Shown: positions 24,888 to 49,955 of the stretch, piece by piece
Numbering within the stretch: the first letter of the stretch is position 1
Layout of the letters: each line of letters starts with the position of its first letter
Source of the DNA: Desulfatitalea tepidiphila
Lineage (GTDB): Bacteria > Desulfobacterota > Desulfobacteria > Desulfobacterales > Desulfosarcinaceae
NCBI RefSeq assembly: GCF_001293685.1
Contig: NZ_BCAG01000003.1
Span: forward strand, 2,644,501 to 2,708,500
Direction: 5' to 3'
Length of the DNA: 64,000 nucleotides
Position numbers and translations under genes: made by a program
The notes under the pieces: generated by a model
Told to the model about the DNA's origin: nothing
Databases searched by the model: none
What the model saw: only the letters and a program-made list of their open reading frames with translations

Positions 24888-24907
24888 TATTCCATCTCAA
24901 ACATTAA

Positions 24908-25583: not shown

Positions 25584-25624
25584 ATTCATATCAAAGGCCG
25601 AACAAAACCTTTGATATGAGAATA
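25584..25624 (+). repeat. Hairpin repeat copy 2
   Basis: ATTCATATCAAAGG (25584-25597) pairs with CCTTTGATATGAGAAT (25608-25623) with one bulged G, ending GAGAATA at 25618-25624. The compensatory change CAAAGG/CCTTTG, compared with CACAGG/CCTGTG in other copies, shows that pairing is conserved. It marks the left end of amidase unit copy A. Confidence 0.9.
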
Positions 25625-25680
25625 GTCGCATATGGACAATTTGCCTCGAGATCGCCCGCGTGGTAGACACACAACGTTTC

Positions 25681-25744
25681 CGGGGCGGAAATGCCGATAA
25701 GCCCCGCGTGGTTAAACCACATTTTCCAAAAACAGGAGATCTCC
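25681..25744 (+). promoter_or_regulatory. Amidase leader hairpins over the ribosome site
   Basis: Three consecutive palindromes: CGGGGC/GCCCCG (25681-25706), GTGGTTAAACCAC (25708-25720), and GGAGATCTCC (25735-25744), which contains the Shine-Dalgarno sequence of the amidase. The last would hide the ribosome site. The same arrangement exists in copy B (48306-48369). A regulatory role is inferred. Confidence 0.5.
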
Positions 25745-25745
25745 C

Positions 25746-27194
25746 ATGTCGGACATCCCGTTTTGCTCTGCAAAGCAGCTGGCTTCCATGATTCGTACAA
25801 AGAAGATCGGAGCCCTCGAACTGCTGGATCTCTATCTGCAGCGGGTAGAATGCTATTCCGAGATCAACGCCATCATCTTTATGGATGTGGACGCCGCCCG
25901 GAAGCGCGCCCGCCAGGCGGACCGGGCCCTTGCACGGGGAAACCTCTGGGGCCCTCTTCACGGGGTGCCCATGACCATTAAGGAATCCTTCGATGTAGTC
26001 GGCATGCCGACCACATGGGGCGTCCCGAGATATAAGGAAAATTATCCTTCGAGCAATGCTCTGGTGGTTGACCGCTTTCTCCAAGCCGGTGCCGTGATCT
26101 TCGGCAAGACCAACGTTCCCATGTACCTCGCGGACTGGCAGACCTTCAATGACATTTACGGGACCACGAACAACCCTTGGGACCGGAACCGTGTACCCGG
26201 CGGCTCCTCGGGGGGATCGGCGGCCGCGCTGGCGGCGGGGTTGACCGGCCTCGAAGCCGGGAGCGATATCGGGGCCTCCATTCGCAATCCCGCCCATTAC
26301 TGCGGCGTGTACGGGCATAAACCCACTTATGGGATCATATCTCCTCTCGGCCAAGCCTTGCCGGGGACGTTTGGCCTGACGGACATCGCGGTGGTCGGGC
26401 CCCTCGCACGGAGCGCCGAGGACCTGGCTTTGGCCATGGATGTCATGGCGGGTCCGGACGATATTGACGGTTCCGGGTGGAAACTGAGCCTGCCGAAGCC
26501 GAAGAGGAAGGAGCTCAGGGAATTCAAGGTGGCGGTTGTCTACGATGACCCCGAAGCGGAGGTGGATGAGGAAGTACAGCAAGTACTTCGCGACCTGACC
26601 ACCTTCTTGAAAAAGATGAAGTTGAAGGTGCGGGTAGACGCGCGACCCAAAATCGATTCTCGCGAAGCCCACCGGAACTACATTCGGCTCCTTCGGGGGG
26701 CCACATGCGGACGTCTGACCCCCGAAGATTTCGAGAAGAATTTGGCGGACTATAAATCTTTGAGAGCGGACGACGAAAGCTACCGGGCCCAGATGATCCG
26801 GGCGCAGGCCATGTCCCACAAGGAGTGGCTCGCATACGATAATTTGCGGCACCGTATGCGACTTGCCTGGGCAGCGTTTTTTAGCGACTTCGATCTCTTC
26901 CTCTGTCCGGCTGCCACCACGACGGCTTTCGAGCATAATCAGAAGGGTGAGCGGTGGGAGCGCATGATCTCCGTTAACGGAAAACCCCAACCATCCACCA
27001 CCCAGATGTTCTGGGCCGGATATTCCTGTAACTTCTTCCTACCGGCGACTGTTGCACCCATCGGGCTGTCAAGGAAAGGGCTACCGGTAGGTGTCCAGGT
27101 CGTGGGCCCGCAATACGGTGATCGCGCCTGTATCCAATTTGCACGGCTCCTGGAACGTGAGTACCATCATTTCATTCCACCAACTGGCTACTAG
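25746..27194 (+). CDS. Amidase (amidase-signature family), copy A
   Basis: A 482-aa amide hydrolase of the amidase-signature family. The Ser-cisSer-Lys triad is visible: Lys79 in 'PMTIKESFD', Ser154 in 'PGGSSGGS', and Ser178 in 'GSDIGASIR'. Length and order match soluble family members that cleave small amides; the substrate is unknown. AGGAG precedes ATG 25746 within a palindrome. The encoded protein is identical to copy B (48371-49819), whose whole unit is duplicated. It is the only gene of its unit. Confidence 0.93.
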   Translation: MSDIPFCSAKQLASMIRTKKIGALELLDLYLQRVECYSEINAIIFMDVDAARKRARQADRALARGNLWGPLHGVPMTIKESFDVVGMPTTWGVPRYKENYPSSNALVVDRFLQAGAVIFGKTNVPMYLADWQTFNDIYGTTNNPWDRNRVPGGSSGGSAAALAAGLTGLEAGSDIGASIRNPAHYCGVYGHKPTYGIISPLGQALPGTFGLTDIAVVGPLARSAEDLALAMDVMAGPDDIDGSGWKLSLPKPKRKELREFKVAVVYDDPEAEVDEEVQQVLRDLTTFLKKMKLKVRVDARPKIDSREAHRNYIRLLRGATCGRLTPEDFEKNLADYKSLRADDESYRAQMIRAQAMSHKEWLAYDNLRHRMRLAWAAFFSDFDLFLCPAATTTAFEHNQKGERWERMISVNGKPQPSTTQMFWAGYSCNFFLPATVAPIGLSRKGLPVGVQVVGPQYGDRACIQFARLLEREYHHFIPPTGY

Positions 27195-27289
27195 GGTCAA
27201 AAATGAAGAAAAGGATCTTTCTAAAGGCTCCTCGACGACCTGGCGCTGATTTCAGAATTGCCGGGGCTAACTGGAAGCTGCTATTTTTA

Positions 27290-27330
27290 TTGGATATTAA
27301 AGGGTCCACCAAACCTGCTATATGAGAATA
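27290..27330 (+). repeat. Hairpin repeat copy 3
   Basis: TTGGATATTAAAGG (27290-27303) and CCTGCTATATGAGAATA (27314-27330), loop about 10 nt with CCACC. Pairing is imperfect in this copy. It travels with amidase unit A and is identical to copy 8 at 49915-49955, after which the two sequences diverge abruptly. Confidence 0.88.
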
Positions 27331-27446
27331 CCAGATGCAAAAAACAACGAGATCGTTTTGAGAGCGCAATGTGTGATTGCGTAATCTTCAAATCAAGGGC
27401 AATAATGGCGGGCAACTTCACTCCGTTTCGCTTTAAGAGGTAAAAG

Positions 27447-28271
27447 ATGACATTGATTAAAATTAATGAAATCAAGTGCAAGAAAGATGGGTTATGCGTC
27501 ATGGACTGTCCGGCTGGCATTATCAAACAGGCGGACAAGGATAGTGTGCCGGTGATGATTCCCCAGGGGGATAAAATCTGCCTGCGGTGCGGACATTGTG
27601 TGGCTGTGTGCCCCCATGGTGCCTTGGATCATGTCAATGTGCCTCTGGATAGCAGCCCTGAAATTAAAAAAGAGCTGGCATTGGATACTGTCCAGGCTTC
27701 CCAGTTCCTCAGGACTAGGCGATCCATCCGGCATTTCAAGGATAAGCCTGTGACTCGTGAGACGATACAGGCCCTGATCGACACAGCCCGTTTTGCCCCC
27801 ACCGGTGGCAATTCGCAACTGCTCGCCTGGACGGTTCAAACGGATAAGGCCAAATTGAAAGAGATGTCGGATCTGACGGTGGCGTGGATGAAAATGATGC
27901 TGGAATCGGAGACCGCCAAGAAGCTGCCGCCTTATTTTCCGAGAATTGTGCAGGCGTATGAAGCCGGCATCAATTCCATTACCCGGGATGCGCCTTGTCT
28001 GTTGGTGGCTTCCGCCCCTGGCTATTACGACAATGGTATGGTGGATCTGTCCATTGCCTTGTCTTACCTTGAACTGATGGCCACTGCCAAAGGACTCGGC
28101 ACGTTATGGCTCGGGTTGATAACCCGCGCTTTGAAATTTTTCGAACCGCTCAAAGCATTGGTGGGCCTGCCGGAGAACCATACGCACTTTTATGCCATGG
28201 TGCTGGGGCATCCCAAGTTTAAATACTACCGCCTGCCAGAGAGAAAAGCGGCAAATATTATCTGGAAATAG
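27447..28271 (+). CDS. Ferredoxin-nitroreductase fusion protein
   Basis: A 274-aa protein with two N-terminal [4Fe-4S] motifs ('CKKDGLCVMDCP', 'CLRCGHCVAVCPHGAL') followed by an FMN nitroreductase domain (from about residue 85: 'RRSIRHFKDKPVTRETI', 'ARFAPTGGNSQLL', 'GLGTLWLGL'). Such fusions are common in strict anaerobes and pass electrons from ferredoxin to FMN; the acceptor is unknown. A ribosome site AAGAGG lies just upstream of ATG 27447. Sole gene of its unit, on the array strand. Confidence 0.92.
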   Translation: MTLIKINEIKCKKDGLCVMDCPAGIIKQADKDSVPVMIPQGDKICLRCGHCVAVCPHGALDHVNVPLDSSPEIKKELALDTVQASQFLRTRRSIRHFKDKPVTRETIQALIDTARFAPTGGNSQLLAWTVQTDKAKLKEMSDLTVAWMKMMLESETAKKLPPYFPRIVQAYEAGINSITRDAPCLLVASAPGYYDNGMVDLSIALSYLELMATAKGLGTLWLGLITRALKFFEPLKALVGLPENHTHFYAMVLGHPKFKYYRLPERKAANIIWK

Positions 28272-28376
28272 AGATAGGGCGCCTATTATTTCATGCTATC
28301 CTTTCCAAGGGGATGTGCACTTGACCGATAGATCCAGACCAAGCCAAAATCATGAGATCTTCAACGCACATCCCCT

Positions 28377-28395
28377 AACCTGCGATATGAAAATA
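28377..28395 (+). repeat. Hairpin repeat copy 4 (right half clear)
   Basis: AACCTGCGATATGAAAATA: right half as in other copies with GAAAATA in place of GAGAATA. The left pairing arm is decayed. It lies 27 bp before the start of the GGCT-like gene. Confidence 0.65.
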
Positions 28396-28421
28396 CGGAT
28401 GGTTGATGGTGAGGAGGATTC

Positions 28422-28910
28422 GTGCTCTGCTTCTCGTATGGTTCTAATATGTCGTCCGCGCGTTTAAGAGATCGTGTGCCATCAGCACGTTTTGTCGCAG
28501 TCGCGATTTTGCCAGCTTATAGGCTTCGATTCCACAAAGTCAGTAGCGATGGTTCCGGGAAATGCGACGCTCTGGAAACAGGAAACTACAATGATCGAGT
28601 TTTTGGTGTGGTGTACGAGCTTGCTGATGATGAAAAGCTATCCCTTGATAGCATGGAAGGGCTGGGGTTTGGATATGATGAAAAAGTGGTCGAGGTAATT
28701 ACGGAACAAGGAAAGTTGAACATCTTGATGTATTTCGCCACAAGAGTAAATTCGTCGCTAAAACCTTACTGCTGGTACAAAGAGCACGTCTTGATTGGGG
28801 CCCGTGAGCACGGGTTGCCCCCCGAATACATTGCTCAGATTGAGGCGATTGCGGCTGTCGAAGATCCGGACGTTACCAGGGGCGAGCGAGAACTGGCAAT
28901 ATACTGCTAA
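28422..28910 (+). CDS. Gamma-glutamylcyclotransferase-like protein
   Basis: A 162-aa protein of the GGCT/AIG2-like fold, which cyclises gamma-glutamyl groups to 5-oxoproline. It has the substrate loop 'FSYGSNM' at the N-terminus and the acidic site in 'LDSMEGLGFGYDEKVVEV' (Glu of LDxxEG). Translation begins at GTG 28422, supported by GAGGAGG (28411-28417). Its start lies close to hairpin copy 4, so the unit has almost no leader. It is the only gene in its unit. Confidence 0.85.
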   Translation: MLCFSYGSNMSSARLRDRVPSARFVAVAILPAYRLRFHKVSSDGSGKCDALETGNYNDRVFGVVYELADDEKLSLDSMEGLGFGYDEKVVEVITEQGKLNILMYFATRVNSSLKPYCWYKEHVLIGAREHGLPPEYIAQIEAIAAVEDPDVTRGERELAIYC

Positions 28911-29020
28911 CAAAAAAATCCAGGCGCAGCTCCTTACCCGACGATTGATTCGCCGCTTTGTGGCTGATCAAAAAAGTCCTATGTACAGGAAAATTGCCAG
29001 TAAACACCTCCGATATTCAA

Positions 29021-29060
29021 ATCAGATCAGTGGCTCAGCCAACCTCTCGATATGAGAATA
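29021..29060 (+). repeat. Hairpin repeat copy 5
   Basis: Right half CCTCTCGATATGAGAATA ends at 29060; the left arm is poorly paired. Same orientation as the others, between the GGCT-like and DsrE-like units. Confidence 0.7.
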
Positions 29061-29138
29061 AAGATAACAAATGCGAGGGCAGCAATCCATTCAAGATCTA
29101 TCCATCCAATAACCAAATTTCATTTAAAGGAGAGGGTA

Positions 29139-29477
29139 ATGCAAGACAGACTGTTGGTGCTCTGGACTAATGGAGATAAAACAGTGGCAATGAACATGGT
29201 GTGTATGTACGCCCACAATTCAAAAATCAGAGGATGGTGGGACAATGTTACACTTCTTATTTGGGGTGCCTCCGGGGATCTTCTGGTCAATGATGCAGAA
29301 GTCATGGAAAAAATATCAGAGATGAAAAATGCAGGTGTTGAAGTGATTGCCTGTAAACGATGTGCCGAGAATATGGGCATTTTAGAAAGACTGGAAGCGA
29401 TCGGCGTAAAGGTCTTCTATACAGGGGAATTTTTAACAGATTGGCTGAAGTCAGGAGATCGGGTAATCACAATTTAA
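29139..29477 (+). CDS. DsrE-family protein
   Basis: A 112-aa small alpha/beta protein of the DsrE/DsrF-like family, whose members include sulfur-relay and peroxiredoxin-like proteins. 'LLVLWTNGDKTVAMNMVCMY' at the start and 'GVEVIACKRCAENMGI' in the middle match the family; the cysteines could be reactive, but the role is unknown. AAAGGAGAGGG precedes ATG 29139. An in-frame extension up to 29052 runs into hairpin copy 5 and is rejected. Sole gene of its unit. Confidence 0.85.
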   Translation: MQDRLLVLWTNGDKTVAMNMVCMYAHNSKIRGWWDNVTLLIWGASGDLLVNDAEVMEKISEMKNAGVEVIACKRCAENMGILERLEAIGVKVFYTGEFLTDWLKSGDRVITI

Positions 29478-29658
29478 AGTTTTGCATTTTTTCGGAATGT
29501 ATATTCCATCCGGAGTCTTGGCATGCTAAAGTTCCGGATCTGGAAAATGGATTTGACATTACAAAGGTCCGCCCGGTATCGGACTATTGCTGGTCCATAG
29601 CAGTAGTCCTTATTTTTAAAAAAGGAATTGCAGTGTCTAATGAAAGCCGGAATTTCGA

Positions 29659-29699
29659 TTGGATATTGCAGGCCCGGCCCAACCTGCGATATGAGAATA
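29659..29699 (+). repeat. Hairpin repeat copy 6
   Basis: TTGGATATTGCAGG (29659-29672) pairs with CCTGCGATAT (29683-29692; one mismatch), loop CCCGGCCCAA, then GAGAATA (29693-29699). Its CTGCG/TGCAG arms differ from other copies in a paired way. Last copy before the catabolic cluster. Confidence 0.9.
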
Positions 29700-30088
29700 G
29701 TAGCGATGAACTTTACTTTGAACTCTTAAGAGGGCGATCTTCAAATGGATTGGCTTCAAGAAATTCGAAAGAGCACTCCGCGGATAAAACAATTTACAAA
29801 TACATTATTCGCCAACTTTCAAGCCAATATGTTTATTTTACAATCGCTGGGAATAAATTGGAGAAATAGTTTAAAAAATAAAGCGGTTATCCACGAAGCC
29901 CAATTGATATATTGAGGTGGTTGATCTCGATACCCAAGGTTGCGCGTCTCGCTTCCATTTTTTCAAGTGGGTAGCAGCTTTCGATAATATGCATGGTTTC
30001 AATCATAGAGTGTGGCTCTCGCGTGTGTTCCGGAATTGGGCTTTGTGGGTAACCCCAATATATTTAAAAGCAATTTAATGGAGAGATT
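29700..30088. other. Gap without recognisable gene
   Basis: About 390 AT-rich bases between hairpin copy 6 and the QueG-like gene. Frames are short and lack ribosome sites. No hairpin of note was seen. Confidence 0.45.
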
Positions 30089-30952
30089 ATGATATCCAAA
30101 GTAGATGCCCAACACGTTGAGACTATGATTAAAAGTTTTATCGCTATAGATCACTCCAACACGCTCAGAAACAAAGCTAATGATAAAGCCTTTGGGATCC
30201 CCTTGGTGGGGTTTGCAAGTGGAGATGATCTGCTCTTCGAGCAATACAAAGATCATGTAGGGCCTTTTTACATGACCCCTTGGGAAGTCTTTGCAGTCAC
30301 GTTTCGAGACACTACCATCAAGGCGGAGCAACTGACTGTAATCAGTTATATTCTGCCACAAACCGAAGCCACAAAAAACGACAACCGAAAAGAAAAATTC
30401 TACCCTTCCGAACGGTGGGCCAGGGCCCGAATTTTTGGCGAAGAGGTTAATGTAGCACTGCGTCGACACATAGTCCAATCCTTGAAGGATAGAAATATTC
30501 GTGCTGTGGCGCCAGCCCTTGCCCCTCAGTTCAGTGTGCGCATTTCGCCCAAATACGGCTTTTCTTCCACCTGGTCCGAACGTCATGCAGCTTATGCCGC
30601 AGGGTTGGGTACCTTTGGACTATGCGACGGATTGATAACACCAGTGGGTAAAGCTATGCGCACTGGATCGGTCGTGGCCCAGATGAATATCCCCGCTACG
30701 CAACGGCCCTACACCGATCATCGGGCCTATTGTCTCTATTTTTCAAAAGGAACCTGTAAGAAATGTATTTCCCGCTGTCCGGTAGGCGCCATTAGCGAAT
30801 CTGGAAAAAACAAGTTGACCTGCTTAAACCATTTGTTTCCCGTTACCAGCAATTATGTCAAAGAAAGTTTCGGAATAGACGGCTATGGTTGCGGCCTTTG
30901 TCAGACCGGCGTTCCATGTGAATCGCGCATACCTCACAGCACGGACGGGTAG
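30089..30952 (+). CDS. QueG-like 4Fe-4S protein
   Basis: A 287-aa protein with the C-terminal pair of [4Fe-4S] motifs seen in epoxyqueuosine reductase-like proteins ('YCLYFSKGTCKKCISRCP', then 'CLNHLF' and 'GCGLCQTGVPCESRIP'). The N-terminal region includes 'WSERHAAYAAGLGTFGLCDG', the usual family landmark. True QueG carries cobalamin-binding sequence that I cannot confirm, so this is a relative of unknown substrate. GGAGAG lies before ATG 30089. It is the last + strand gene before the minus-strand cluster. Confidence 0.85.
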   Translation: MISKVDAQHVETMIKSFIAIDHSNTLRNKANDKAFGIPLVGFASGDDLLFEQYKDHVGPFYMTPWEVFAVTFRDTTIKAEQLTVISYILPQTEATKNDNRKEKFYPSERWARARIFGEEVNVALRRHIVQSLKDRNIRAVAPALAPQFSVRISPKYGFSSTWSERHAAYAAGLGTFGLCDGLITPVGKAMRTGSVVAQMNIPATQRPYTDHRAYCLYFSKGTCKKCISRCPVGAISESGKNKLTCLNHLFPVTSNYVKESFGIDGYGCGLCQTGVPCESRIPHSTDG

Positions 30953-30972
30953 GGTCCACAGGGGTGGGAATG

Positions 30973-31404
30973 TTACCCGACAGGTGATTCACTGCTCAAG
31001 ACCGTTTTTAGAACCTTCTGCATTGCGTTCTTAGGAAGCGCGTCACGAAACTCCACTATGGTCGGTTTTTTATAGCTGGCCAAGCTCTCGCGGCAATATT
31101 CTATGATCTCTTCCTCGGTGGCCTTTTCCCCTTTGCGTAGCACCACCACAGCCTTGACGATCTCCCCCCAGTATGCATCGGGAACCCCGATCACAGCGGC
31201 CTCCTCAATCTTGGGGTTCTTGTGCAGAACATATTCAATTTCAACAGGATAGATGTTTTCTCCCCCGCGGATGATCATGTCCTTCTTCCTGCCGGCAAGA
31301 TATAAGTAGCCGTCCTCGTCCATCCTTGCTAAATCGCCCGTATGAAGCCATCCCCCCCGCAAGGCTTCCTCCGTCGCTTCCGCATTGTTCCAATACCCCC
31401 TCAC
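30973..31404 (-). pseudogene. Acyl-CoA ligase, C-terminal fragment
   Basis: The last ~140 residues of an adenylate-forming acyl-CoA ligase: 'GGWLHTGDLARMDEDGYLYL', 'GRKKDMIIRGGENIYPVEIE', and the C-terminal lysine region 'LPKNAMQKVLK'. The N-terminal two thirds, with the AMP-binding core, are absent. Upstream it is joined, out of frame, to a broken LivH-like permease gene at about 31400, indicating a deletion fusion. It should not be active alone. Confidence 0.85.
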
Positions 31405-32161
31405 CGATCACCAAGGATGACAGCAAGGCCCCACCCAGACTCCCCAAGCCGCCAACCACGACCACCACGAAAGCGTCCATCCCTATCTGGTCCGCCATGC
31501 CTGGAAAAACACTAAGAAGGGGCGCTGCCGCCACACCGGCCACTCAGGCTAGCCAAGTTCCGAAACCAAAGACCAGCATAAAAACCAGCGGAGTGTTTAT
31601 ACCTAAAGCACTGACCATGCTGGCGTTGGACACTGTTGCCTGCACAACCTTTCCCAGACGGGTCTTGAACAGGACTAAAATCATGATGCCCAACACGACC
31701 AGAGAAAGAAGAATAATGAATAAACGATAAAGCGGGAAGCGAATAGCCCCGAAATAAACCAGTCCGCTCAAGGAAGGAGGTATGGAAATAACCAAAACTT
31801 CCCTACCCCAGAAGGATTTAACGGTCTCCAGAATAACAAGCATGATCCCCATTGTAAGAAGGAGTTCACCAATATGCCCCTGTAGGTGTACTCTGCGTAG
31901 TAAAAACCGCTCTACGAGAATTCCGAGCAAGGCTGTGACAATGGGCGCTATGATCAGAGCCATCCAAAAGTTGCCGGTTACCAATAGAACTGTATAGCAA
32001 AAATAGGCAGACAGCATAAAAAGGGAGGCGTGAGCCAAATTCAGGATGCCCATCATCCCGAAAACCAAGGTCAAACCGGAGGCCACCAAAAATAGCAACA
32101 TTCCGTATGCAAGTCCATGAAGGCCCTGCGTAATATACATTACCACTACAGGACTCATCAT
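31402..32161 (-). pseudogene. LivH-type branched-chain amino acid permease, broken
   Basis: An inner-membrane ABC permease of the LivH family. The first 205 residues read well ('YITQGLHGLAYGMLLFLVASG', 'GLTLVFGMMGILNLAHAS') up to 'FGFGTWLA', where an in-frame TGA (31544-31546) stands where a Gly codon is expected. Beyond it the frame continues with 'AGVAAAPLLSVFPGM' and 'VVVVVGGLGSLGGALLSSLVIG', then ends at the junction with the acyl-CoA ligase fragment. Nonsense mutation plus deletion make it a pseudogene; no Liv partners are seen nearby. Confidence 0.85.
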
Positions 32162-32464
32162 GCACCTTACTTTGGGCCTGCTTTAATAAAAGTATAGAAT
32201 GTCCAATGATAAAATCAGGTTAAAACCTGATGGACATGCCCTTCCCTGCTCTGACAATTTCTGCTTCCAACTAATGTTGAAAACAGGGACGACTTCTATT
32301 TTGCAATATTAGATGGGATCATATAATTTGAGCAAATTAAATTGTTCACCGATAGCGTCGTTTCCGTCACCACCCGGCGAACGGTTTCAAGTCGTTGCAA
32401 TCGCAATATACGGACAACAAGATAATTCAGAGCAAGCATTTTTTCACACTCGAACAGCAGCCAC
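32162..32464. other. Gap with perfect small hairpin
   Basis: About 300 bp between the stress protein gene and the permease remnant. ATCAGGTT and AACCTGAT (32214-32231) form an 8-bp stem with a 2-nt loop, flanked by GTCCA/TGGAC that extends pairing. No U-run follows on either strand. It could be a terminator or processing site. Confidence 0.5.
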
Positions 32465-32959
32465 TTACTCGGGAAGCCTGCAGTGTTGTGGACCGCGGAC
32501 CGATACCACTGCACATGGGGAGTGTCGGAAAACTTTTTCCGCTGTCGAACCAAAAAGTACACCAGCCAGATCGGTACGCCCCTTGGTGCCCATGACCACC
32601 ATGTCCGCTTTTTCTTTACGCAAAATCCTTATTATTTCCTCAAAAGGGACACCAACCCTTAGCTCAATTTTTGCCGCAACACCTTCCGTTCGGGATAGAT
32701 ACGTTTCTTTGAAGATCCGAATGCGTTCCCGGTTAGTTTTTTGGATGTAGTCTTCCTTGCTGACCGGAAATCCCTGGCTAGCAACAAGATCGAGGGATTG
32801 AAGGCCTGAAATGTTTATGATGTTCAAGATGATGAGCTCTGCCTGCAGCGATCTGGCCAATGCAAGCGCGTGCATGAACGTTGTTTCAGCGTATGCGGAA
32901 AGATCCAGAGCTGCGACAATTTTTTTTAGATTCACTTCACAATCTTCCATTATTTCCAT
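32465..32959 (-). CDS. Universal stress protein (UspA family)
   Basis: A 164-aa UspA-type nucleotide-binding protein. It begins 'KKIVAALDLSAYAETTFMHA', and the C-terminal ATP-binding motif G-x2-G-x9-G-[ST] is present in 'GTKGRTDLAGVLFGSTAEKV'. It overlaps nothing but follows the M20 gene by four bases, so it is at the end of the catabolic operon. USP genes are often attached to transporter operons; a regulatory or stress role is presumed. Confidence 0.9.
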   Translation of the reverse strand: MEIMEDCEVNLKKIVAALDLSAYAETTFMHALALARSLQAELIILNIINISGLQSLDLVASQGFPVSKEDYIQKTNRERIRIFKETYLSRTEGVAAKIELRVGVPFEEIIRILRKEKADMVVMGTKGRTDLAGVLFGSTAEKVFRHSPCAVVSVRGPQHCRLPE

Positions 32960-32963
32960 CCTT

Positions 32964-34163: not shown

Positions 34164-34195
34164 TGGGGTCCTTCCTTTCGACAGTGCAGGTTTCT

Positions 34196-34705: not shown

Positions 34706-34917
34706 ATTCGCTCCCTTGAAGGCATGTTATCGGCTACGCCGACAAACAGCCGTCTCCAACGATTAGTAAAGATCAGGGTGGAGGCGGAATTCAAACGATG
34801 GCAACTATAGTGTTTCAGGCATTTAAATTCCGACTTCGATAAACATTTCGGGTCAACAGGTTTTCAGAATGCTTGTGATGCGATCAGGCGACGCATGCCG
34901 TTTCTTCCCGATCGGAA

Positions 34918-35814: not shown

Positions 35815-35912
35815 GCCAATAAACCTTTCCCTTCCGAACCAGTTTGGTTCAGGAAAAGCGGGAAAGCGGCATCAAACAAATATATGGCCGCATTCCCGCC
35901 AACCTCTCCTGT

Positions 35913-36962: not shown

Positions 36963-37090
36963 TTTTCGCCTCCTTGTGTCCTTTTCCTAATGGAAATGTT
37001 TTTTCCGAGCGGCATTCGATCCCGCGATGTGCCTAAAGCCGCCGTTCTGGGGCATCCCGTCCAATACAAGGCCGGGGAGAAAACATTGCA

Positions 37091-38056: not shown

Positions 38057-38102
38057 GCGAATGCTCCTTTCATTTCACCCTCTATCTTTCCTGATTGTGA
38101 AT

Positions 38103-39910: not shown

Positions 39911-39977
39911 CTGATGATTCCATTCAAGGTAAAATGTTTTATTATTATTTTTGTTCTCCGTCCGCCATCAGTTTCAT

Positions 39978-41516: not shown

Positions 41517-41633
41517 CGAATATGCCTCCCGATTGTTTGATCCAGATGGGTTTTTTACCTATCTGAAAAACTCGAACTATCAGAATTTTTGTATTTTTTT
41601 AAAAACTTCTCTGCATTGGAGAAGGGGCAGAGA

Positions 41634-43124
41634 TTACACAAGGCTCAACCCCATCGTGGGTTCGGCGGACCGAAGTTTGGAATCATTCAAGTGTTCATCG
41701 ATACCTGCAAGATAACGCGCTAGGTTTTTTTTGTCCTCGAAATCGTAATCCATACCAAGGGAGATGGTTTCCATAATCGGACTGCCGCCACCGTGAACAC
41801 CGGCGATTTTATACCAGGCCGACATACTGGATGCCCCCAGATCTTCTACAAATTTCCATACCTTAAGGGATTCTTCCGGTGTGAGTTTAGCATTGCGGAC
41901 AATGAATTTCTTCAATTCATCAACATTTTCACCCCTTTTGAAATCATCGTGGAAAGGCATCGTAACCGAAATGCCTCCGGCAATTTCTGTCAGGATGTTG
42001 TATTCATGGTAAATCAGTTCTCCTGTCAGGCGCCTTCCGACATTGGCATAAACTTCGTTAGGGAAAAAAACTCCACTTGCTGTAAGGGTTCCATACAAGG
42101 CTGCGGCAATGCCGGCGGAATAGGCCAAAGCCGCTGCACTGGCGAATTCCGTCAATTTTTCCTTTACATGCGAGGCTTTCGCGATGTTGTTGGCCTCGGC
42201 CGCCAGCATAGTGGCCCCACAGAGAATGTCGGATACGGCCGGCTTGCATCCACAGTAGCTGTGTCTATGGGAATTCGCAAAGAGCAGGGCCATCCGTCGG
42301 CCGAATTCCCACTCTCCGCACATGAAGACTCTCTCCTTCGGTACGAAGACATCATCGAAAATGATGACCGAATCTGAAACACCCAGTCGGCAGAAGGGAG
42401 AAGCATCCTGATCGTTGTTGTCCCGAAGCCAAACCGGGCGTGTGATGATCCTAACCCCCTCGGTGTCAGGCGGAATGACGAAAGCTACGGCATAGTCGCG
42501 GTCTTCCTCGGTCAAGGCACGTGTTGGGACCACCGCCATCTCTTCAGCATAAGCAACGGTCGTGATCGACATTTTATAGCCACGAACCACGATGCCATCA
42601 TTTCGTCGTTCCACAACATGCACGTAGTGATCGGGATTATCCTGCTGAGAGGGCCGCTTCAGCCGATCTCCCTTACTATCTGTCTGGGCACAGCAGCCTG
42701 CGACATCGTTTTTCTGGTAGTGACGCAGAAATTCTAAAAATCGGGTATGGTAATCGGTTCCTTTGGCTGCATCAATTTCCTTGGTGCAAACCGCCAGGGC
42801 GGTGATGCCGTCCTGACCCATGCACCTTTGGATACAGCCCCCGGCCCTTCTCGCGGCCAGGTGAATCAATTTCTGCTTCTGCATCAGCTCATAGGGATTC
42901 GACGGGAGCAGGCTGAACCGGTTTACCTCCTCATTGATCAGAGGGGAATGGGCTGTCGCCAGTCCCTTCCACTCCGGGTTCTGCGCCAGGTCGAAGACAA
43001 GATCATAAACCCGAACGCCGGGGCGAATCCTCGGATCTTCACGCCCAACTTTTTCGCCGCCTATATAAATATTGGGGCGCATTGCCGATAGTTTTTCATG
43101 GTACTGCTCTTTGGTTCTCAGCAT
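41634..43124 (-). CDS. 4-hydroxybutyryl-CoA dehydratase-like flavo-Fe-S enzyme
   Basis: A 496-aa member of the 4-hydroxyphenylacetate 3-hydroxylase/4-hydroxybutyryl-CoA dehydratase superfamily. The [4Fe-4S] ligands that mark the radical dehydratase branch appear conserved: Cys97 and Cys101 in 'GGCIQRCMGQD', His286 and Cys293 in 'NSHRHSYCGCKP' (C-x3-C and H-x6-C, as in AbfD). FAD-contact blocks include 'YKMSITTVAYAEEM'. It likely dehydrates a hydroxyacyl-CoA by ketyl-radical chemistry and is oxygen sensitive. Its start overlaps the TetR-SDR gene by seven bases. Confidence 0.88.
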   Translation of the reverse strand: MLRTKEQYHEKLSAMRPNIYIGGEKVGREDPRIRPGVRVYDLVFDLAQNPEWKGLATAHSPLINEEVNRFSLLPSNPYELMQKQKLIHLAARRAGGCIQRCMGQDGITALAVCTKEIDAAKGTDYHTRFLEFLRHYQKNDVAGCCAQTDSKGDRLKRPSQQDNPDHYVHVVERRNDGIVVRGYKMSITTVAYAEEMAVVPTRALTEEDRDYAVAFVIPPDTEGVRIITRPVWLRDNNDQDASPFCRLGVSDSVIIFDDVFVPKERVFMCGEWEFGRRMALLFANSHRHSYCGCKPAVSDILCGATMLAAEANNIAKASHVKEKLTEFASAAALAYSAGIAAALYGTLTASGVFFPNEVYANVGRRLTGELIYHEYNILTEIAGGISVTMPFHDDFKRGENVDELKKFIVRNAKLTPEESLKVWKFVEDLGASSMSAWYKIAGVHGGGSPIMETISLGMDYDFEDKKNLARYLAGIDEHLNDSKLRSAEPTMGLSLV

Positions 43125-44518
43125 AATTCCAAAACTCCTTGTAATGGTTGAATATTTCCGCAGGCGACTTTTATCACTTGATTGGTAAGATTCCTCGATT
43201 TGTCTCCGAGCAGGAAAAGAATCGAATTGGTGACATCTGAAAGTTCCCCATAGCTTTCAGGATTGACCTCAGTGTGGTTTGAATTCCACCAATCAAATGG
43301 GCGTGGTGCCTTAATGTACCCTGGAATGATACAATTCACGTTCACGCGACTTGAATAAAGTTTTCTGGAAAGACTCCCAGCAAGAGCCACTGTTCCGGCC
43401 AAAGCGGAGTAGAAACCTATCTCATTCAGGCTCACATCCCATGCCCAAGGTGCAATATAAATCAAACGGCTCCAAGGCCGTTGAGGCATTAATTTAATCA
43501 AATGTTGAGCGATGTCGTGCGCTGATTGGAGGTTCTCTTCAAGGATCCGGAATTTGTTATCGACCTCAGAATCCTTTTCTACCAAGACGGGTTCATGAGG
43601 AACTCCTGCCCCTAAATCGTGGATATAGATGTCGAACGGTCCAGACTCTTTCTCTATTCTGGAAAAGAGCGTCTGGCCTAATGGTCCGTATTCACTAGAT
43701 TTAAAGCACTTTACGTTTCCACCCCAATTTAAATCATGGTGTGGGTCCATGTAACCTTTGTCATTTACAACTGCGAATACCGATGCTCCCGCTGCCGTCA
43801 CTGCCTGAATCGAGGCTGCACCGATCGCTTTTTCGCCTCCGACTACCAGCGCCCTTTTACCAGAAAGTGGATTCATTTCACTTATGAAGGCGCTCCGCCT
43901 ATCGAGCTTTTTTGGTAAGAGACCGAAAAGAATCATATCCAGAATGAATTTTTCAGCCTCTTGACTACTGGCGCTTCCACGCAAATCCCATCTTTTCAGC
44001 ACCCAGCCATCGACTGTAGTTTTGATCAGGTTGGCTGCCAATTTCGGGTTGCACCCTCGCAGGAATCCTTTTTGAACGCATTCGCTAATCACCCTTTCGA
44101 ACATGGCGATGTGTTCGTGTTCCTTTTTGAGAAAATTTTGCAAAAAAGGTGGACTAAGAATGTGGCCTTCCTGATAAAGGAGAAGAATACCGTCTGACCA
44201 CCGATCCATAACGTTGAATTCGGCCCGGACCATGCGGCGTAACTTCTCAAGAGGGTCGTCGATGTTTTCCGTAGCTCTTTGGAGTTCCTCGAACACCAAG
44301 TCACACAAGTAATTATGGATAAGATAGAAGATGTCTTCTTTTGAACCGACATAGTCGTATATATTGCCGTAACTGAATCCAGCTTCCTCGGAAAGGTCCC
44401 TCAGGGTCGTTTTGTGAAAACCGTTGCGGGAAAACAGTTTGATTGCGGAAAGCACAATCTGAACCCGTCTTTTTTCGACCAGTTCTTTGTTTTTGACGGT
44501 GGTGGGAATTTCGTCCAT
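43118..44518 (-). CDS. TetR regulator fused to degenerate SDR domain
   Basis: A 466-aa two-part protein. Residues about 15-200 are a TetR repressor ('AIKLFSRNGFHKTTLRDLSE', helix-turn-helix 'AGFSYGNIYDYVGSK') with its ligand-binding helices. Residues about 220-466 are a short-chain dehydrogenase fold beginning 'GKRALVVGGEKAIGAAS', a distorted TGxxxGIG motif. The catalytic Tyr-x3-Lys place reads 'FYSALAGTVALAGSL', lacking the Lys, so activity is doubtful. The SDR part may sense NAD(H) or an acyl-CoA. It heads the catabolic operon and probably controls it. There is no stop codon or frame change between the parts. Confidence 0.85.
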   Translation of the reverse strand: MDEIPTTVKNKELVEKRRVQIVLSAIKLFSRNGFHKTTLRDLSEEAGFSYGNIYDYVGSKEDIFYLIHNYLCDLVFEELQRATENIDDPLEKLRRMVRAEFNVMDRWSDGILLLYQEGHILSPPFLQNFLKKEHEHIAMFERVISECVQKGFLRGCNPKLAANLIKTTVDGWVLKRWDLRGSASSQEAEKFILDMILFGLLPKKLDRRSAFISEMNPLSGKRALVVGGEKAIGAASIQAVTAAGASVFAVVNDKGYMDPHHDLNWGGNVKCFKSSEYGPLGQTLFSRIEKESGPFDIYIHDLGAGVPHEPVLVEKDSEVDNKFRILEENLQSAHDIAQHLIKLMPQRPWSRLIYIAPWAWDVSLNEIGFYSALAGTVALAGSLSRKLYSSRVNVNCIIPGYIKAPRPFDWWNSNHTEVNPESYGELSDVTNSILFLLGDKSRNLTNQVIKVACGNIQPLQGVLELC

Positions 44519-44810
44519 CAGGCCTCCGACCGATCAGTCAGAATCTGATTGAGCTATCATGAAAACTACGCTATCTTAGCCAAAATGTGAATGTCAATCA
44601 TTTTTTAGTTTAAATTTTAAAAATGACGCCATTTAGAAATACATATTATATAGGCAGGTCATGGGAAGGGAGTCAGCAGGGGACTCGACTTCAGCATCAG
44701 CGACGGGCAGGATTCAAGCTTGGACACAACTTCTAAACAAGTGTGTTCAGCTTCGGCTGGTTTCAATATACTCAAAAAATCACAAGAACCTAAATTGAAA
44801 GGGTAAAACA
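44519..44810. promoter_or_regulatory. Divergent control region
   Basis: About 290 bp between the TetR-SDR gene (leftward) and the alpha/beta hydrolase gene (rightward). It is AT-rich and contains TGAATGTCAATCA and similar partly symmetrical TetR-size sites near 44590. Promoters for both directions are expected here; none is clear enough to name. Confidence 0.4.
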
Positions 44811-45506
44811 ATGGCAAATCCGATTTTGCTGATTCCAGGCCTTCTATGCTCAGCTAGATTGTATGCCCCCCAGGTTCCGGAATTATGGAGGTGCGGCGCC
44901 GTTATGGTTGCAGAGCACACCCGCGATGACACCATGTCGGGTATTGCCAGCCGTATCCTTCGTAATGCACCTCCGCAGTTCATCTTGGTCGGATTGTCGA
45001 TGGGCGGCTACATTGCATTTGAAATCATGCGAGAAGCCCCGGAACGTGTTATAAAATTAATTTTGATGGATACATCGGCCCGCAGCGACACGTCCGAACA
45101 AAGTGAACGCCGCAGCACGCTTATTTCCCGCGCCCAAAACGGTCAATTGGAACAGATCGCAGATCAACTCTTCCCAGTTCTGGTTCACCCTTTACGTAAA
45201 AACGACCCTAAGCTTAAAAACTTGGTGCGACTTATGGCTGCGGAGGTCGGGCCCAATGCATTCGTCCGTCAGCAAAACGCTATAATTTCACGCCCGGACT
45301 CGCGTTCCGGACTCGGCGCAATCAAGTGCCCAACCCTGATTGTCGTCGGTGACCATGATGAACTTACACCACCGGAGCTATCTGAAGAAATTGCTGATGG
45401 CCTTTCCGGCGCACACTTAATTAAGATTCCCGAGTGTGGTCATTTATCCACCCTCGAAAAGCCCGATAAAGTATCGCAAGCTATAGTCAATTGGATCCAG
45501 AGTTGA
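44811..45506 (+). CDS. Alpha/beta hydrolase
   Basis: A 231-aa serine hydrolase with the nucleophile elbow 'VGLSMGGYIAF' (Ser63), acid residue in 'VVGDHDELTPP', and His in 'PECGHLSTLEKP'. It resembles short esterase/thioesterase-like members. It is divergent from the TetR-SDR/dehydratase operon and may belong to the same pathway, for example by hydrolysing an ester or thioester. AAAGGG precedes the ATG. Confidence 0.88.
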   Translation: MANPILLIPGLLCSARLYAPQVPELWRCGAVMVAEHTRDDTMSGIASRILRNAPPQFILVGLSMGGYIAFEIMREAPERVIKLILMDTSARSDTSEQSERRSTLISRAQNGQLEQIADQLFPVLVHPLRKNDPKLKNLVRLMAAEVGPNAFVRQQNAIISRPDSRSGLGAIKCPTLIVVGDHDELTPPELSEEIADGLSGAHLIKIPECGHLSTLEKPDKVSQAIVNWIQS

Positions 45507-45949
45507 GGATGGATTAAAAACGAATAGAGCGAAGTATTTTGGGAAACTCACTCAGGATGTTGGTTCGGGCAAGCCGATAGGATGACTAAAAACCACGCTC
45601 CTAATGGCAAGATTCCCCAACTTACCGGAAATAAAGACGATAAACCCCATTAACACCGGACCAAATCCCTCCGATCTCAAGATCGCTTTCCCGCACTTCA
45701 GAGATCAGGAAAGGCGATGGAGCTTCAGGCTTTGAGTGAGTTGGTGTAGATAGGAATGGAAAACCAATGATATCATTTGCATATAGCGATGGTCACCATG
45801 CATCTTGCCAAGGGGCTTGAATTCAGGGCTGTGGCGGTCATAGTTTACGACGATGAGGTAATCCCTTCCCAGCAGCGCATTGAAAGAGTCACCAATGATT
45901 CGGACCTGGAGGAGGTCTATAACATCGAACGCCACCTTCTTTATTTTAA

Positions 45950-47479
45950 CTCAACTTTCGGGAATGGATTGAGGGAACGAAAACATGGTCTATGATGTTG
46001 ATTTCATAAAGAAATAACTTGAAGAGCCCTATCTTTTGATTTATGGTGGATTTGCGACAATTCACAATAAATTCAAAGAGAAAGGGCTCAAATGGACCAT
46101 ACCAGCATCGTCTCCCAATCGCAAGACCCTGTTCATGTACAAAGCAAAATAGATGACTTCTTTGGCCATTTTAAAATCGCAACGCTCATGCATCAATGTG
46201 GGATGCGTAAACATCACGGTCATAGTGTTCGCTCTTTGACAAAAGCCATATTCACACTGCCCTTTGTTGGCAAGAACTTCTTCCGCGGCATCGTACTCAA
46301 CAGCGAATTGCCTTTCGGCAAAGACGCCGCCTATGAATTACTCAAGGGCCGGACCTACAATTGGCGTCGGCTGCTGCTTTGTCTGGGCCTGCGACTGTTT
46401 GGTGTTTTCAACCGGCTGACCAGCGATGAACGCGAATCGGTGCTCATTATTGACGACAGCACGTATGACCGTTCCCGCTCCAAATGGGTGGAACTGCTCG
46501 CGAGAATCTGGGATCATAGCACCGGCCGTTTCTTGAAAGGCTTTCGGATGCTCACCATGTGCTGGTCGGATGGAACCAGCTGTCTTCCGATGGATTTTGC
46601 CCTGTTGTCTTCTACGGACGCCGAAAAGCGTTTGTGCGACAGTCAAAAGATCCTGGATAAACGTTGCTGTGCATATCAGCGCCGCAGGGAAGCTACCGAA
46701 AAGGCAACCGCGCATCTTGAGATCATGATAAAGCGAATTCTTTCAGCGGATGTTTCCGCCAAATACCTGCTGATGGACAGCTGGTTTACCATGCCGGCAA
46801 CCGTTGCCAACTTGGCCCAGCACATCAAGATCATCGGAATGGTGAAAAAGTCGTCCCGTATTCACTACGCCTTCAACGGCCAGTCCTTGGATCTGATGGC
46901 CATCCACCGAAGGCTTGCAAAGCGCCGTGGTCGCGCCAAGATCCAGGCCAGCACTGTTGTCATGCTCAACAATGAGGTCTCAGCCAAGCTGGTGTTCGTA
47001 CGCGACAGACGAAAAAAGGACTGGCTGGCGCTGCTTTCAACCGACACTGATTTGGCCGATGAGGATGTCGTGCGCATCTACGGCAAACGCTGGGACATCG
47101 AAGTATTTTTCAAAATGTCCAAACAGCACTTGAAACTGGCAAAGGAAATCCAGTGCCGGGACTTTGATGCCTTGATCGCTCATACCACCATCGTCTTTAT
47201 GCGCTACATGTTCCTGGCATACCAATGCCGCATGGAGACTGATCATCGCACCTTTGGCGAATTGTTTTACGCCTGCTGCGATGAGGTGGCGGATATCTCC
47301 TTTTTGGAGGCGCTTTGCCGCATTCTGACGCTGGCTACCGATCGGCTCAAGCAGTTAGGTACTTTCTGCGAAAAAACGGCGGCTTCCTTCTTCGATGCAA
47401 TCATGAACACCGCGCTGCAGTGTGTTGGCTTTTCAAAGAACAAATTGACGATCGGTTAAACCCGATCCCGAAAGTTGAA
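45950..47479 (+). mobile_element. IS4-like insertion sequence, full copy
   Basis: 1,530 bp bounded by near-perfect inverted ends ([C/T]TCAACTTTCGGGA) and a 7-bp target duplication ATTTTAA (45943-45949 and 47480-47486). It carries one transposase gene and is inserted in the helicase remnant. A shortened relative lies 92 bp further right. Confidence 0.88.
46092..47459 (+). CDS. IS4-like DDE transposase
   Basis: A 455-aa transposase. Catalytic candidates are 'LIIDDSTYDRSRSK' (first Asp), 'YLLMDSWFTMPATV' (second Asp), and 'GKRWDIEVFFKMSKQHLKL' (Glu in the Y/W-[RD]-x3-E box), as in IS4-type enzymes. The reading frame is intact, so the element may still move and could mobilise the deleted derivative at 47571-48071. 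Confidence 0.88.
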   Translation: MDHTSIVSQSQDPVHVQSKIDDFFGHFKIATLMHQCGMRKHHGHSVRSLTKAIFTLPFVGKNFFRGIVLNSELPFGKDAAYELLKGRTYNWRRLLLCLGLRLFGVFNRLTSDERESVLIIDDSTYDRSRSKWVELLARIWDHSTGRFLKGFRMLTMCWSDGTSCLPMDFALLSSTDAEKRLCDSQKILDKRCCAYQRRREATEKATAHLEIMIKRILSADVSAKYLLMDSWFTMPATVANLAQHIKIIGMVKKSSRIHYAFNGQSLDLMAIHRRLAKRRGRAKIQASTVVMLNNEVSAKLVFVRDRRKKDWLALLSTDTDLADEDVVRIYGKRWDIEVFFKMSKQHLKLAKEIQCRDFDALIAHTTIVFMRYMFLAYQCRMETDHRTFGELFYACCDEVADISFLEALCRILTLATDRLKQLGTFCEKTAASFFDAIMNTALQCVGFSKNKLTIG

Positions 47480-47570
47480 ATTTTAACCTGTACCAGGGCC
47501 CGGGATTACCTTATTGTTACCGGCTTAGAACCGGCTTCTGAGTTCCTTGATGATTTAAATAGGTAGGAAG

Positions 47571-48071
47571 CTCAACTTTCGGGAATGGATTGAGAGGATG
47601 AAAATATAATCTATGCTGTTGATATCATGAAGAATTAACTTGAAGAGCCCCATCTTTTAATTTATAGTGGATTTGCGAATATACACAATAAATTCAAAGA
47701 GAAAGGGCTCAAATGAATCATATCAGCATAGCCTCCCAATCGCAAGACCCTGTTCATGTTCAAAACAAAATCGATGACTTCTTTGGTCGTTTTAAAGTCG
47801 CCACCCTCATGAATCAATGTGGGGTGGAGACAGATCATCGCACCTTCGGTGACTTGTTTTATGCGTGCTGCGATGAGGTGGCGGACATCACCTTCTTGGA
47901 AGCGCTATGCCGTATTCTGACGTTGGCGACCGATCGGCTGAAACAGTTAGGTACCTTCTGCGAAAAGACAGCGGCTGCCTTCTTCGATGCAACCATGAAC
48001 GCCGCGTTGCAGTGTGTTGGCTTGTCAAAGAACAAATTGGCGATCGCTTAAACCCGATCCCGAAAGTTGAA
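47571..48071 (+). mobile_element. Internally deleted IS4-like derivative (MITE-like)
   Basis: 501 bp with the same inverted ends and its own 7-bp target duplication TAGGAAG (47564-47570 and 48072-48078). It carries a 112-codon frame (47713-48051) that joins the transposase N-terminus ('FKVATLMNQCG') in frame to its C-terminus ('VETDHRTFGDLFY'), about 1.03 kb of the middle being lost at a short CAATG homology. Sequence differences from the full copy show an independent, older history. It should be non-autonomous. Confidence 0.88.
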
Positions 48072-48081
48072 TAGGAAGTTA

Positions 48082-48213
48082 ATGAATAGAATAGACATTA
48101 AACTTGAAGCTGAAGCGGCTGAATTCATAGTCCTGACCCACCTGTTCCACAATAGGACCGCCGCATTTAGCAAGGTGTTCTTAGTAGTTCCTAACCCTGC
48201 AATAGACAATTGA
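48082..48213 (+). pseudogene. Short ORF, probable gene stub
   Basis: A 43-codon frame starting MNRIDIKLEAEAAEFIVL after AGGAAGTT. The opening resembles starts of small nuclease-fold hypothetical proteins, but the frame ends inside hairpin copy 7. It may be a truncated gene left at a unit edge. Low certainty. Confidence 0.35.
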
Positions 48214-48249
48214 TAACACAGGTGCTGCTAATCCTGTGATACGAGAATA
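48210..48249 (+). repeat. Hairpin repeat copy 7
   Basis: TTGATAACACAGG (48210-48222) pairs with CCTGTGATAC (48233-48242; partial), loop TGCTGCTAAT, then GAGAATA (48243-48249). It marks the left end of amidase unit copy B. Confidence 0.9.
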
Positions 48250-48370
48250 GTCACATATGGACAATTTGCCTTGAGATCGCCCGCGTGGTAGACACACAAC
48301 GTTTCCGGGGCGGAAATGCCGATAAGCCCCGCGTGGTTAAACCACATTTTCCAAAAACAGGAGATCTCCC

Positions 48371-49819
48371 ATGTCGGACATCCCGTTTTGCTCTGCAAAG
48401 CAGCTGGCTTCCATGATTCGTACAAAGAAGATCGGAGCCCTCGAACTGCTGGATCTCTATCTGCAGCGGGTAGAATGCTATTCCGAGATCAACGCCATCA
48501 TCTTTATGGATGTGGACGCCGCCCGGAAGCGCGCCCGCCAGGCGGACCGGGCCCTTGCACGGGGAAACCTCTGGGGCCCTCTTCACGGGGTGCCCATGAC
48601 CATTAAGGAATCCTTCGATGTAGTCGGCATGCCGACCACATGGGGCGTCCCGAGATATAAGGAAAATTATCCTTCGAGCAATGCTCTGGTGGTTGACCGC
48701 TTTCTCCAAGCCGGTGCCGTGATCTTCGGCAAGACCAACGTTCCCATGTACCTCGCGGACTGGCAGACCTTCAATGACATTTACGGGACCACGAACAACC
48801 CTTGGGACCGGAACCGTGTACCCGGCGGCTCCTCGGGGGGATCGGCGGCCGCGCTGGCGGCGGGGTTGACCGGCCTCGAAGCCGGGAGCGATATCGGGGC
48901 CTCCATTCGCAATCCCGCCCATTACTGCGGCGTGTACGGGCATAAACCCACTTATGGGATCATATCTCCTCTCGGCCAAGCCTTGCCGGGGACGTTTGGC
49001 CTGACGGACATCGCGGTGGTCGGGCCCCTCGCACGGAGCGCCGAGGACCTGGCTTTGGCCATGGATGTCATGGCGGGTCCGGACGATATTGACGGTTCCG
49101 GGTGGAAACTGAGCCTGCCGAAGCCGAAGAGGAAGGAGCTCAGGGAATTCAAGGTGGCGGTTGTCTACGATGACCCCGAAGCGGAGGTGGATGAGGAAGT
49201 ACAGCAAGTACTTCGCGACCTGACCACCTTCTTGAAAAAGATGAAGTTGAAGGTGCGGGTAGACGCGCGACCCAAAATCGATTCTCGCGAAGCCCACCGG
49301 AACTACATTCGGCTCCTTCGGGGGGCCACATGCGGACGTCTGACCCCCGAAGATTTCGAGAAGAATTTGGCGGACTATAAATCTTTGAGAGCGGACGACG
49401 AAAGCTACCGGGCCCAGATGATCCGGGCGCAGGCCATGTCCCACAAGGAGTGGCTCGCATACGATAATTTGCGGCACCGTATGCGACTTGCCTGGGCAGC
49501 GTTTTTTAGCGACTTCGATCTCTTCCTCTGTCCGGCTGCCACCACGACGGCTTTCGAGCATAATCAGAAGGGTGAGCGGTGGGAGCGCATGATCTCCGTT
49601 AACGGAAAACCCCAACCATCCACCACCCAGATGTTCTGGGCCGGATATTCCTGTAACTTCTTCCTACCGGCGACTGTTGCACCCATCGGGCTGTCAAGGA
49701 AAGGGCTACCGGTAGGTGTCCAGGTCGTGGGCCCGCAATACGGTGATCGCGCCTGTATCCAATTTGCACGGCTCCTGGAACGTGAGTACCATCATTTCAT
49801 TCCACCAACTGGCTACTAG
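48371..49819 (+). CDS. Amidase (amidase-signature family), copy B
   Basis: Encodes the same 482-aa sequence as copy A, with the triad Lys79, Ser154 and Ser178 intact, and with the same leader palindromes and ribosome site. Since both copies are complete, dosage or simply recent mobility may explain retention. Downstream, an IS256-type element begins only 38 bp after the unit's terminal hairpin. Confidence 0.93.
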   Translation: MSDIPFCSAKQLASMIRTKKIGALELLDLYLQRVECYSEINAIIFMDVDAARKRARQADRALARGNLWGPLHGVPMTIKESFDVVGMPTTWGVPRYKENYPSSNALVVDRFLQAGAVIFGKTNVPMYLADWQTFNDIYGTTNNPWDRNRVPGGSSGGSAAALAAGLTGLEAGSDIGASIRNPAHYCGVYGHKPTYGIISPLGQALPGTFGLTDIAVVGPLARSAEDLALAMDVMAGPDDIDGSGWKLSLPKPKRKELREFKVAVVYDDPEAEVDEEVQQVLRDLTTFLKKMKLKVRVDARPKIDSREAHRNYIRLLRGATCGRLTPEDFEKNLADYKSLRADDESYRAQMIRAQAMSHKEWLAYDNLRHRMRLAWAAFFSDFDLFLCPAATTTAFEHNQKGERWERMISVNGKPQPSTTQMFWAGYSCNFFLPATVAPIGLSRKGLPVGVQVVGPQYGDRACIQFARLLEREYHHFIPPTGY

Positions 49820-49914
49820 GGTCAAAAATGAAGAAAAGGATCTTTCTAAAGGCTCCTCGACGACCTGGCGCTGATTTCAGAATTGCCGGGGCTAACTGGA
49901 AGCTGCTATTTTTA

Positions 49915-49955
49915 TTGGATATTAAAGGGTCCACCAAACCTGCTATATGAGAATA
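49915..49955 (+). repeat. Hairpin repeat copy 8
   Basis: Identical to copy 3 (TTGGATATTAAAGG ... CCTGCTATATGAGAATA). Sequence right of GAGAATA differs completely from that following copy 3, fixing the unit boundary. Confidence 0.88.

Follow-up and report, generated by a model that had tools for sequence, protein, structure and literature searches.

Why should an amidase gene occur twice in a short stretch of bacterial DNA, in two copies that begin and end at exactly the same seven bases? The question is raised by 64,000 nucleotides of contig NZ_BCAG01000003.1 of Desulfatitalea tepidiphila (positions 2,644,501 to 2,708,500, forward strand; this whole stretch is called the window), in which both copies are bounded by GAGAATA. 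We find that GAGAATA is the tail of a 53-bp site carried by these and other units, and that homology between related genomes mostly breaks at this tail. Judging from sequence comparison, we think it probable (roughly 0.7) that the units are cassettes moved by a site-specific recombination system of the tyrosine type that acts on double-stranded DNA.

The amidase units and the 53-bp site

25618-27330, forward strand: amidase unit copy 1, 1,713 bp including GAGAATA at both ends; gene at 25746-27194
48243-49955, forward strand: amidase unit copy 2; gene at 48371-49819
25572-25624, forward strand: site before amidase copy 1, forming the 3' end of the RsgA/GNAT unit
27278-27330, forward strand: site ending amidase copy 1, 53 bp
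48197-48249, forward strand: site before amidase copy 2, 53 bp
49903-49955, forward strand: site ending amidase copy 2, 53 bp

A preliminary description of the window had presented the two amidase units as equal in length, nearly identical and delimited by GAGAATA within unrelated flanks, and base-by-base alignment bears this out. Each unit is 1,713 bp long (1,706 bp for the unit proper, since GAGAATA is counted at both ends), with 2 mismatches, at offsets +10 (G/A) and +29 (C/T) only. The 400 bp before the preceding sites gave no blastn match between the copies. In the 60 bp outside the units, 10 of 60 positions match downstream and 30 of 60 upstream, the latter because a 53-bp site stands before each unit; these are two different versions of one site, 66% identical to each other. 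The gene product is an amidase, as judged on copy 1, the copy tested, from a match to PF01425 and a match to NCBIfam NF004816 above cut-off.

The same description had given each unit one gene and a 3' hairpin. The single amidase gene and the terminal site with its inverted arms were confirmed, and the folding was not: in a test that took in 8 site copies, the amidase's own site folded less well than shuffled versions of it (z +1.69; 198 of 200 equal or surpass it). The hairpin had been given too much weight; the sites bear a closer resemblance to tyrosine-recombinase core sites that carry additional binding arms. Rfam at gathering thresholds gave no match in window positions 15000-62000 or in four loci of genome G009, a relative of the same genus.

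The 53-bp site consists of CTGYGATAT, an inverted copy of this motif and then CCTKTGATAWGAGAATA; its consensus reads CTGYGATAT, 7 nt, ATATCACAGG, 10 nt, CCTGTGATAT, GAGAATA. One 9-bp motif is present in three copies per site, the middle copy being inverted. A gap-free alignment of 53 columns was obtained for 31 sites, taken from the genome under study (G000, 5.6 Mb in 7 contigs, which contributed 8), from its relatives and from three other records; the sites were chosen by matrix score, which favours the tail, and their 10 invariant columns all fall in the right arm and tail. When G000 was searched with a model built from 9 site copies, 10 clear sites (E at most 2.1e-8) were recovered in two clusters, both on contig C3, at 2.409 Mb and 2.667-2.704 Mb, along with a single weak site and a palindrome matched in reverse. 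The sites of a cluster share one orientation, as seen in all 15 of the 15 clusters having two or more sites (overlapping reverse palindrome matches excluded). An exact GAGAATA end was found in 79 of 102 sites fetched from the genomes searched, which were located by a matrix or model of the site and are thus biased towards its tail. The window itself contains 14 copies of GAGAATA, compared to a mean of 6.1 in 100 shuffles, none of which reaches 14; the tails of full sites are only some of these copies.

A first model of the site matched 8 of 60 genomes, its own included. A second, built from the 31 sites and used with rough E-values and strict filters, matched 46 of the 389 genomes that were sampled from the order; the matching genomes belong to 22 of 150 genera. 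Of 64 fetched sites, 3 lie within 150 bp of a contig end (expected 1.7), 10 within 300 bp (3.4) and 15 within 600 bp (6.9), a count that covers only sites selected for fetching; the excess at 300 and 600 bp, not at 150 bp, is as repeated or variable junctions would give. In viral contigs, nine stretches carried the short tail and two a second pattern, and none held a full site.

Unit boundaries, arms and a candidate enzyme

If the units were mobile cassettes with a 3' recombination site, moving at or next to GAGAATA as the preliminary description had proposed, related genomes should break there; longer shared flanks or other breakpoints were to point to segmental duplication. The former was seen. 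Among the 102 fetched sites we counted 132 homology blocks that touch a tail and continue past the site by 40 bp or more to one side. Of these, 71 end at the tail, 55 begin at the tail or inside the site, and 6 cross it or are intermediate, so that 126 of 132 break at the tail. The blocks are not independent, and 17 upstream plus 8 downstream families are the fairer figure. Since unit ends are joined to different partners, the pattern is cassette-like and not that of segmental duplication. One upstream family, with 11 loci in related genomes, is a unit of about 285 bp; the sequence downstream of it varies. The site before amidase copy 2, with about 50 bp preceding it, resembles two loci of genome G006, and three different sequences follow the tails. 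In a pair from genome G070, homology begins at a site tail in one of the two contigs; in the other, the tail at this point is decayed.

Two short sequences recur behind the tails. Element X, of about 40-135 bp, is conserved right after site tails, as in L088 (12587 and 17897), L089 (963), L102 (9519), L097 (9701) and the window (56388); genome G009 has it in seven places, five of them directly after a tail. A serine recombinase remnant near element X in G009 was set aside as the enzyme, being seen at few sites. At L093 18474-18600, a small element with inverted ends seems, by eye, to be inserted between the site tail and element X. Element Y (gtatcatgaaaaccccggcaaaggagccattgagaata...) makes up the first 40-90 bp after the tail in 11 loci (L135, L261, L283, L285, L301, L306, L309, L312, L313, L314 and L317) behind different sites, and a second GAGAATA lies within it in 7 of the 11. 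It is possibly a platform or end site.

The core site of a tyrosine recombinase has inverted arms flanking a 6-8 bp overlap at which crossover occurs. The sequence 3' of the tail had played no part in finding the sites. Among 65 non-redundant flanks from the 102 sites, T, A, T and C are preferred at positions +2 to +5 behind the tail (37, 47, 40 and 35 of 65; p 7e-6 to 6e-11). Over its first 10 bases, the flank matches the inverted left arm at a mean of 4.3 positions, compared to 2.6 in control windows. GATA and TATC lie 9 nt apart around the 7-bp GAGAATA. GATA on the left and TATC on the right are thus inverted arms enclosing GAGAATA, as in a tyrosine-recombinase core whose overlap is 7 bp long. 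In sequence terms, the general core layout is present, with a strong left arm, a weak right arm and breakpoints at GAGAATA. We read the arms of the site as probable protein-binding half sites.

A candidate enzyme lies behind a site in two genomes (G210 and G245; loci L277 and L282). In both, a unit runs 2,125 bp to its GAGAATA, with homology between the loci over 2,138 bp at 86%; it starts with CTATACGTAACAA and ends with TTGTTACGTACAGGAGAATA. The unit is filled by two overlapping tyrosine recombinase genes, whose products in L282 have 292 and 363 amino acids (aa), are 33% identical to each other and match XerC-like NCBIfam models below every cut-off. If joined, the unit's ends would form 13-bp inverted arms (12 of 13) around GAGAATA. 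A tyrosine-recombinase element thus appears to use the same GAGAATA overlap. Relatives of the 292-aa protein were not confirmed in viral contigs, and none was found in plasmids at E 1e-40. Elements of the recombinase in trio (RIT), Tn554, GInt and SE types share with this unit overlapping tyrosine recombinase genes and inverted end arms. The L282 unit differs in having two recombinases, not three, and the window's units carry none intact; passages of PMC8138268 and PMC10214605 give three recombinase genes for a RIT element.

Taken together, these data suggest the following mechanism. Each unit would comprise one or a few genes followed by the 53-bp site. Crossover would take place within GAGAATA, the overlap between the strong left arm CCTKTGATAW and the weak inverted right arm nTATC, the latter being supplied by the start of the next unit, while the arm motif's two additional upstream copies, of which one is inverted and one direct, would be bound as accessory sites. 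Flanked by sites in direct repeat, a unit could leave as a circle with one site and re-enter at another GAGAATA site; if a replicated copy were captured, two copies would be left, as for the amidase. In G000 the enzyme would act in trans, and host Xer is possible.

More tentatively, at rather less than even odds, the sites may represent a third bacterial gene-cassette system beside integrons and dif modules, characterized by double-stranded tyrosine recombination, a three-armed 53-bp site, a GAGAATA overlap, order-wide spread, shuffling of unrelated metabolic genes and a recombinase pair of its own that rides as a unit. The capture of cassettes tends to be seen as the work of integrons, which are searched for by attC and IntI; a cassette system with a different site would escape such searches. 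It would also offer anaerobes in the environment another way to gather genes and reorder them. At 53 bp the site is compact enough for direct tests of the idea, and the two-recombinase unit supplies a first enzyme to try.

Several observations weigh against a tyrosine-recombinase cassette system. The window's array holds no intact recombinase. The two-recombinase unit is rare (2 of 102 sites, plus a remnant of its first 38 bp in a third genome), and its best match among 26 recombinase loci of G000 is about 32% identical. Another tyrosine recombinase, the L024 type, was rejected as the enzyme: it was not found in the site-rich genomes G006 and G009, and no site was seen at any of 13 other loci that carry it, within fetched stretches of 9-20 kb, some of them cut short by contig ends. 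The right arm TATC is weak, and the flanks from which it was derived are not independent by descent. Stem pairs that lack clear covariation (see below) are no proof of recognition as a duplex. At the left end of the 285-bp units, the overlap-like sequence is a different one. Some unit pairs include one or two copies whose 3' site cannot be recognised, and some begin at differing distances from the site. Homology of the window's nitroreductase unit with genome G005 begins 60 bp past the tail in the window and about 7 bp past it in L098. Five relatives of the same genus (completeness 73-99%) gave no site match in the 389-genome search.

The L024 type is the one recombinase family near both G000 clusters. 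The window's array contains a reversed C-terminal piece of it (22989-23396; 60% identity over 94 aa), some 396 bp past a site, and an intact gene (C3:2426859-2427692) lies about 17 kb from the second cluster. A relative is found 1.4 kb from a site in L319.

Alternative explanations

A narrower variant is that the sites are unusual Xer sites, with units moved by host XerC/XerD as proposed for dif modules of Acinetobacter plasmids. Units moved by Xer would need no linked recombinase; most sites examined have no adjoining recombinase, and several short tyrosine recombinases are encoded in site-bearing genomes. The inner inverted repeat GATA...TATC has the layout of an Xer core site, and dif (pdif) modules are likewise gene modules bounded by sites with no need for a recombinase inside. 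In dif modules, however, site orientation alternates, whereas the sites here are all direct repeats within a cluster, carry extra arms and lie on a 2.8-Mb contig. The part of PMC6449649 that describes the dif site gives 28 bp, made of two 11-bp arms and a 6-bp centre; here the centre is the 7-bp GAGAATA, and 53 bp, not 28, are conserved up to and including it. The empty result for the five relatives of the same genus also counts against host Xer, which is presumably universal. On balance we regard this variant as unlikely.

A divergent integron, in which an integron integrase acts on folded single-stranded attC-like sites, would account for one-gene units with a 3' imperfect palindrome and for a cut at its outer 3' edge. 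Integron cassettes share with the present units the single gene, the 3' recombination site, direct repeats, an occurrence in arrays and scattered clusters and, as proposed here, tyrosine-type chemistry. Exact site-to-site boundaries around single genes were indeed found, the RsgA/GNAT unit having two genes and a fragment. Integron integrases were detected in 16 of 21 genomes searched, that of D. tepidiphila included. However, none lies next to the window's array: the G000 matches over cut-off are on contigs C6, C5 and C1, a remnant below cut-off is on C7, and near 2.41 and 2.67 Mb of C3 only weak matches to other recombinases were seen. The exception is L294, where a gene (1254-2285) with 49% identity to an integron integrase precedes a site (2591-2643) by 309 bp, in the same direction. 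By eye, the frame of this gene seems interrupted further upstream.

The sites themselves speak against attC. In attC the R boxes at the outer ends are RYYYAAC and GTTRRRY; the core here is GAGAATA, and GTT occurs in the tail of 0 of 102 sites. The 31 aligned sites are also of one length, and a right arm follows the cut. A strict scan for canonical attC gave nothing anywhere, integrase loci included. Loosened, and with one shuffle each, the scan gave 9 matches versus 4 in 10 site loci and 9 versus 7 in 7 integrase loci. Against 20 surrogates, the 9 matches in site loci compare with a mean of 10.9 (range 4-16) and none overlaps a site, while the 9 in integrase loci compare with a mean of 4.5, a level that 1 of 20 surrogates reaches. 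Three attC-like matches on one strand near the L167 integrase of G006 look like a real array. With canonical-looking attC in that place, a normal integron would be separate from the GAGAATA sites, and both systems seem to coexist in the genus.

Pairing within the site was examined in the 31 aligned sequences. Inner-stem cells are paired at 80.6%, far above slid controls. Over the stem, 76.1% of cells are paired compared to 75.0% in shuffles, and only 13 of 500 shuffles reach that value, as a folded site would predict. However, there is no clear covariation: the score is 0.080 versus 0.070 in shuffles (55 of 500 reach it), and 3 stem pairs changed on both sides versus 2.1 (167 of 500 reach it). 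Pairing without clear covariation makes attC-style folding less likely but by itself not untenable. On the whole we consider a divergent integron improbable. An outer pairing, TATTC/GAATA, was set aside (67% of cells paired, no double changes).

Cleavage 3' of a hairpin by an HUH (Y1) transposase or rolling-circle nickase, which would move units as single strands, fits recognition mainly on one side of the cut and the accumulation of copies, and Y1 proteins were found in 9 of 12 genomes tested. It does not fit the right arm present after the cut, nor the tyrosine recombinases encoded by the enzyme-coding unit with GAGAATA at both ends, and in G000 each of the four Y1 matches either lies over 400 kb away from the sites or is on another contig. 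We hold this explanation to be very improbable; a Y1 transposase, present without linkage to sites, was set aside as the enzyme. Ordinary duplication, by segmental copying or insertion sequence (IS)-mediated movement with a coincidental boundary, could draw on heavy IS traffic and on an identical IS256-type element close behind both amidase copy 2 and the AIG2-like unit of L023, but IS borders fall outside the units, and the break at the tail recurs in 17 families upstream and 8 downstream, which leaves it barely credible.

Further units and neighbouring elements

21530-21548, forward strand: possible site remnant (AACCTGCGATACAAGAATA)
22544-22596, forward strand: site of 53 bp after a stretch with a reversed DinB-like gene (21584-22108)
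22597-25624, forward strand: RsgA/GNAT unit, two genes and one recombinase fragment, ending in a site
22989-23396, minus strand: tyrosine-recombinase fragment in the RsgA/GNAT unit
23718-24887: RsgA-like GTPase gene in the same unit
24908-25459: GNAT acetyltransferase gene in the same unit
27331-28395, forward strand: ferredoxin-nitroreductase unit; gene at 27447-28271
28396-29060, forward strand: AIG2/GGACT-like unit; gene at 28422-28910, site at 29008-29060
29061-29699, forward strand: DsrE-like unit; frame at 29052-29477, Pfam match within 29136-29474, site at 29647-29699
56335-56388, forward strand: diverged site with tail GAGGACTA, followed by element X
59707-59759, forward strand: diverged site of 53 bp with tail GAGAACA

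The 3' site of the nitroreductase unit looks decayed, with AACCTGCGATATGAAAATA remaining. A second copy of the AIG2-like unit lies about 264 kb away on the same contig (L023 13422-12746 versus window 28384-29060). The two are 84.8% identical over 678 bp; their homology ends at the tail and begins within the last 12 bases of the preceding site tails.

Transposable elements are close to the duplicated units. A DDE transposase gene (46092-47459) and a truncated second copy (47571-48071) stand just before amidase copy 2, in window positions 45950-48071; the truncated copy matches the gene in two pieces at 87-89% identity. The IS256-type element, of the Mutator family, is present as identical 1,426-bp copies at window 49994-51419 and L023 11194-12619. 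It adjoins a site-bearing unit in both G000 clusters, 39 bp after amidase copy 2 and 127 bp after the AIG2-like unit of L023. In addition, a repeat of about 290 bp is found at window positions 21079-21365 and 61666-61956, with 89.7% identity between the copies.

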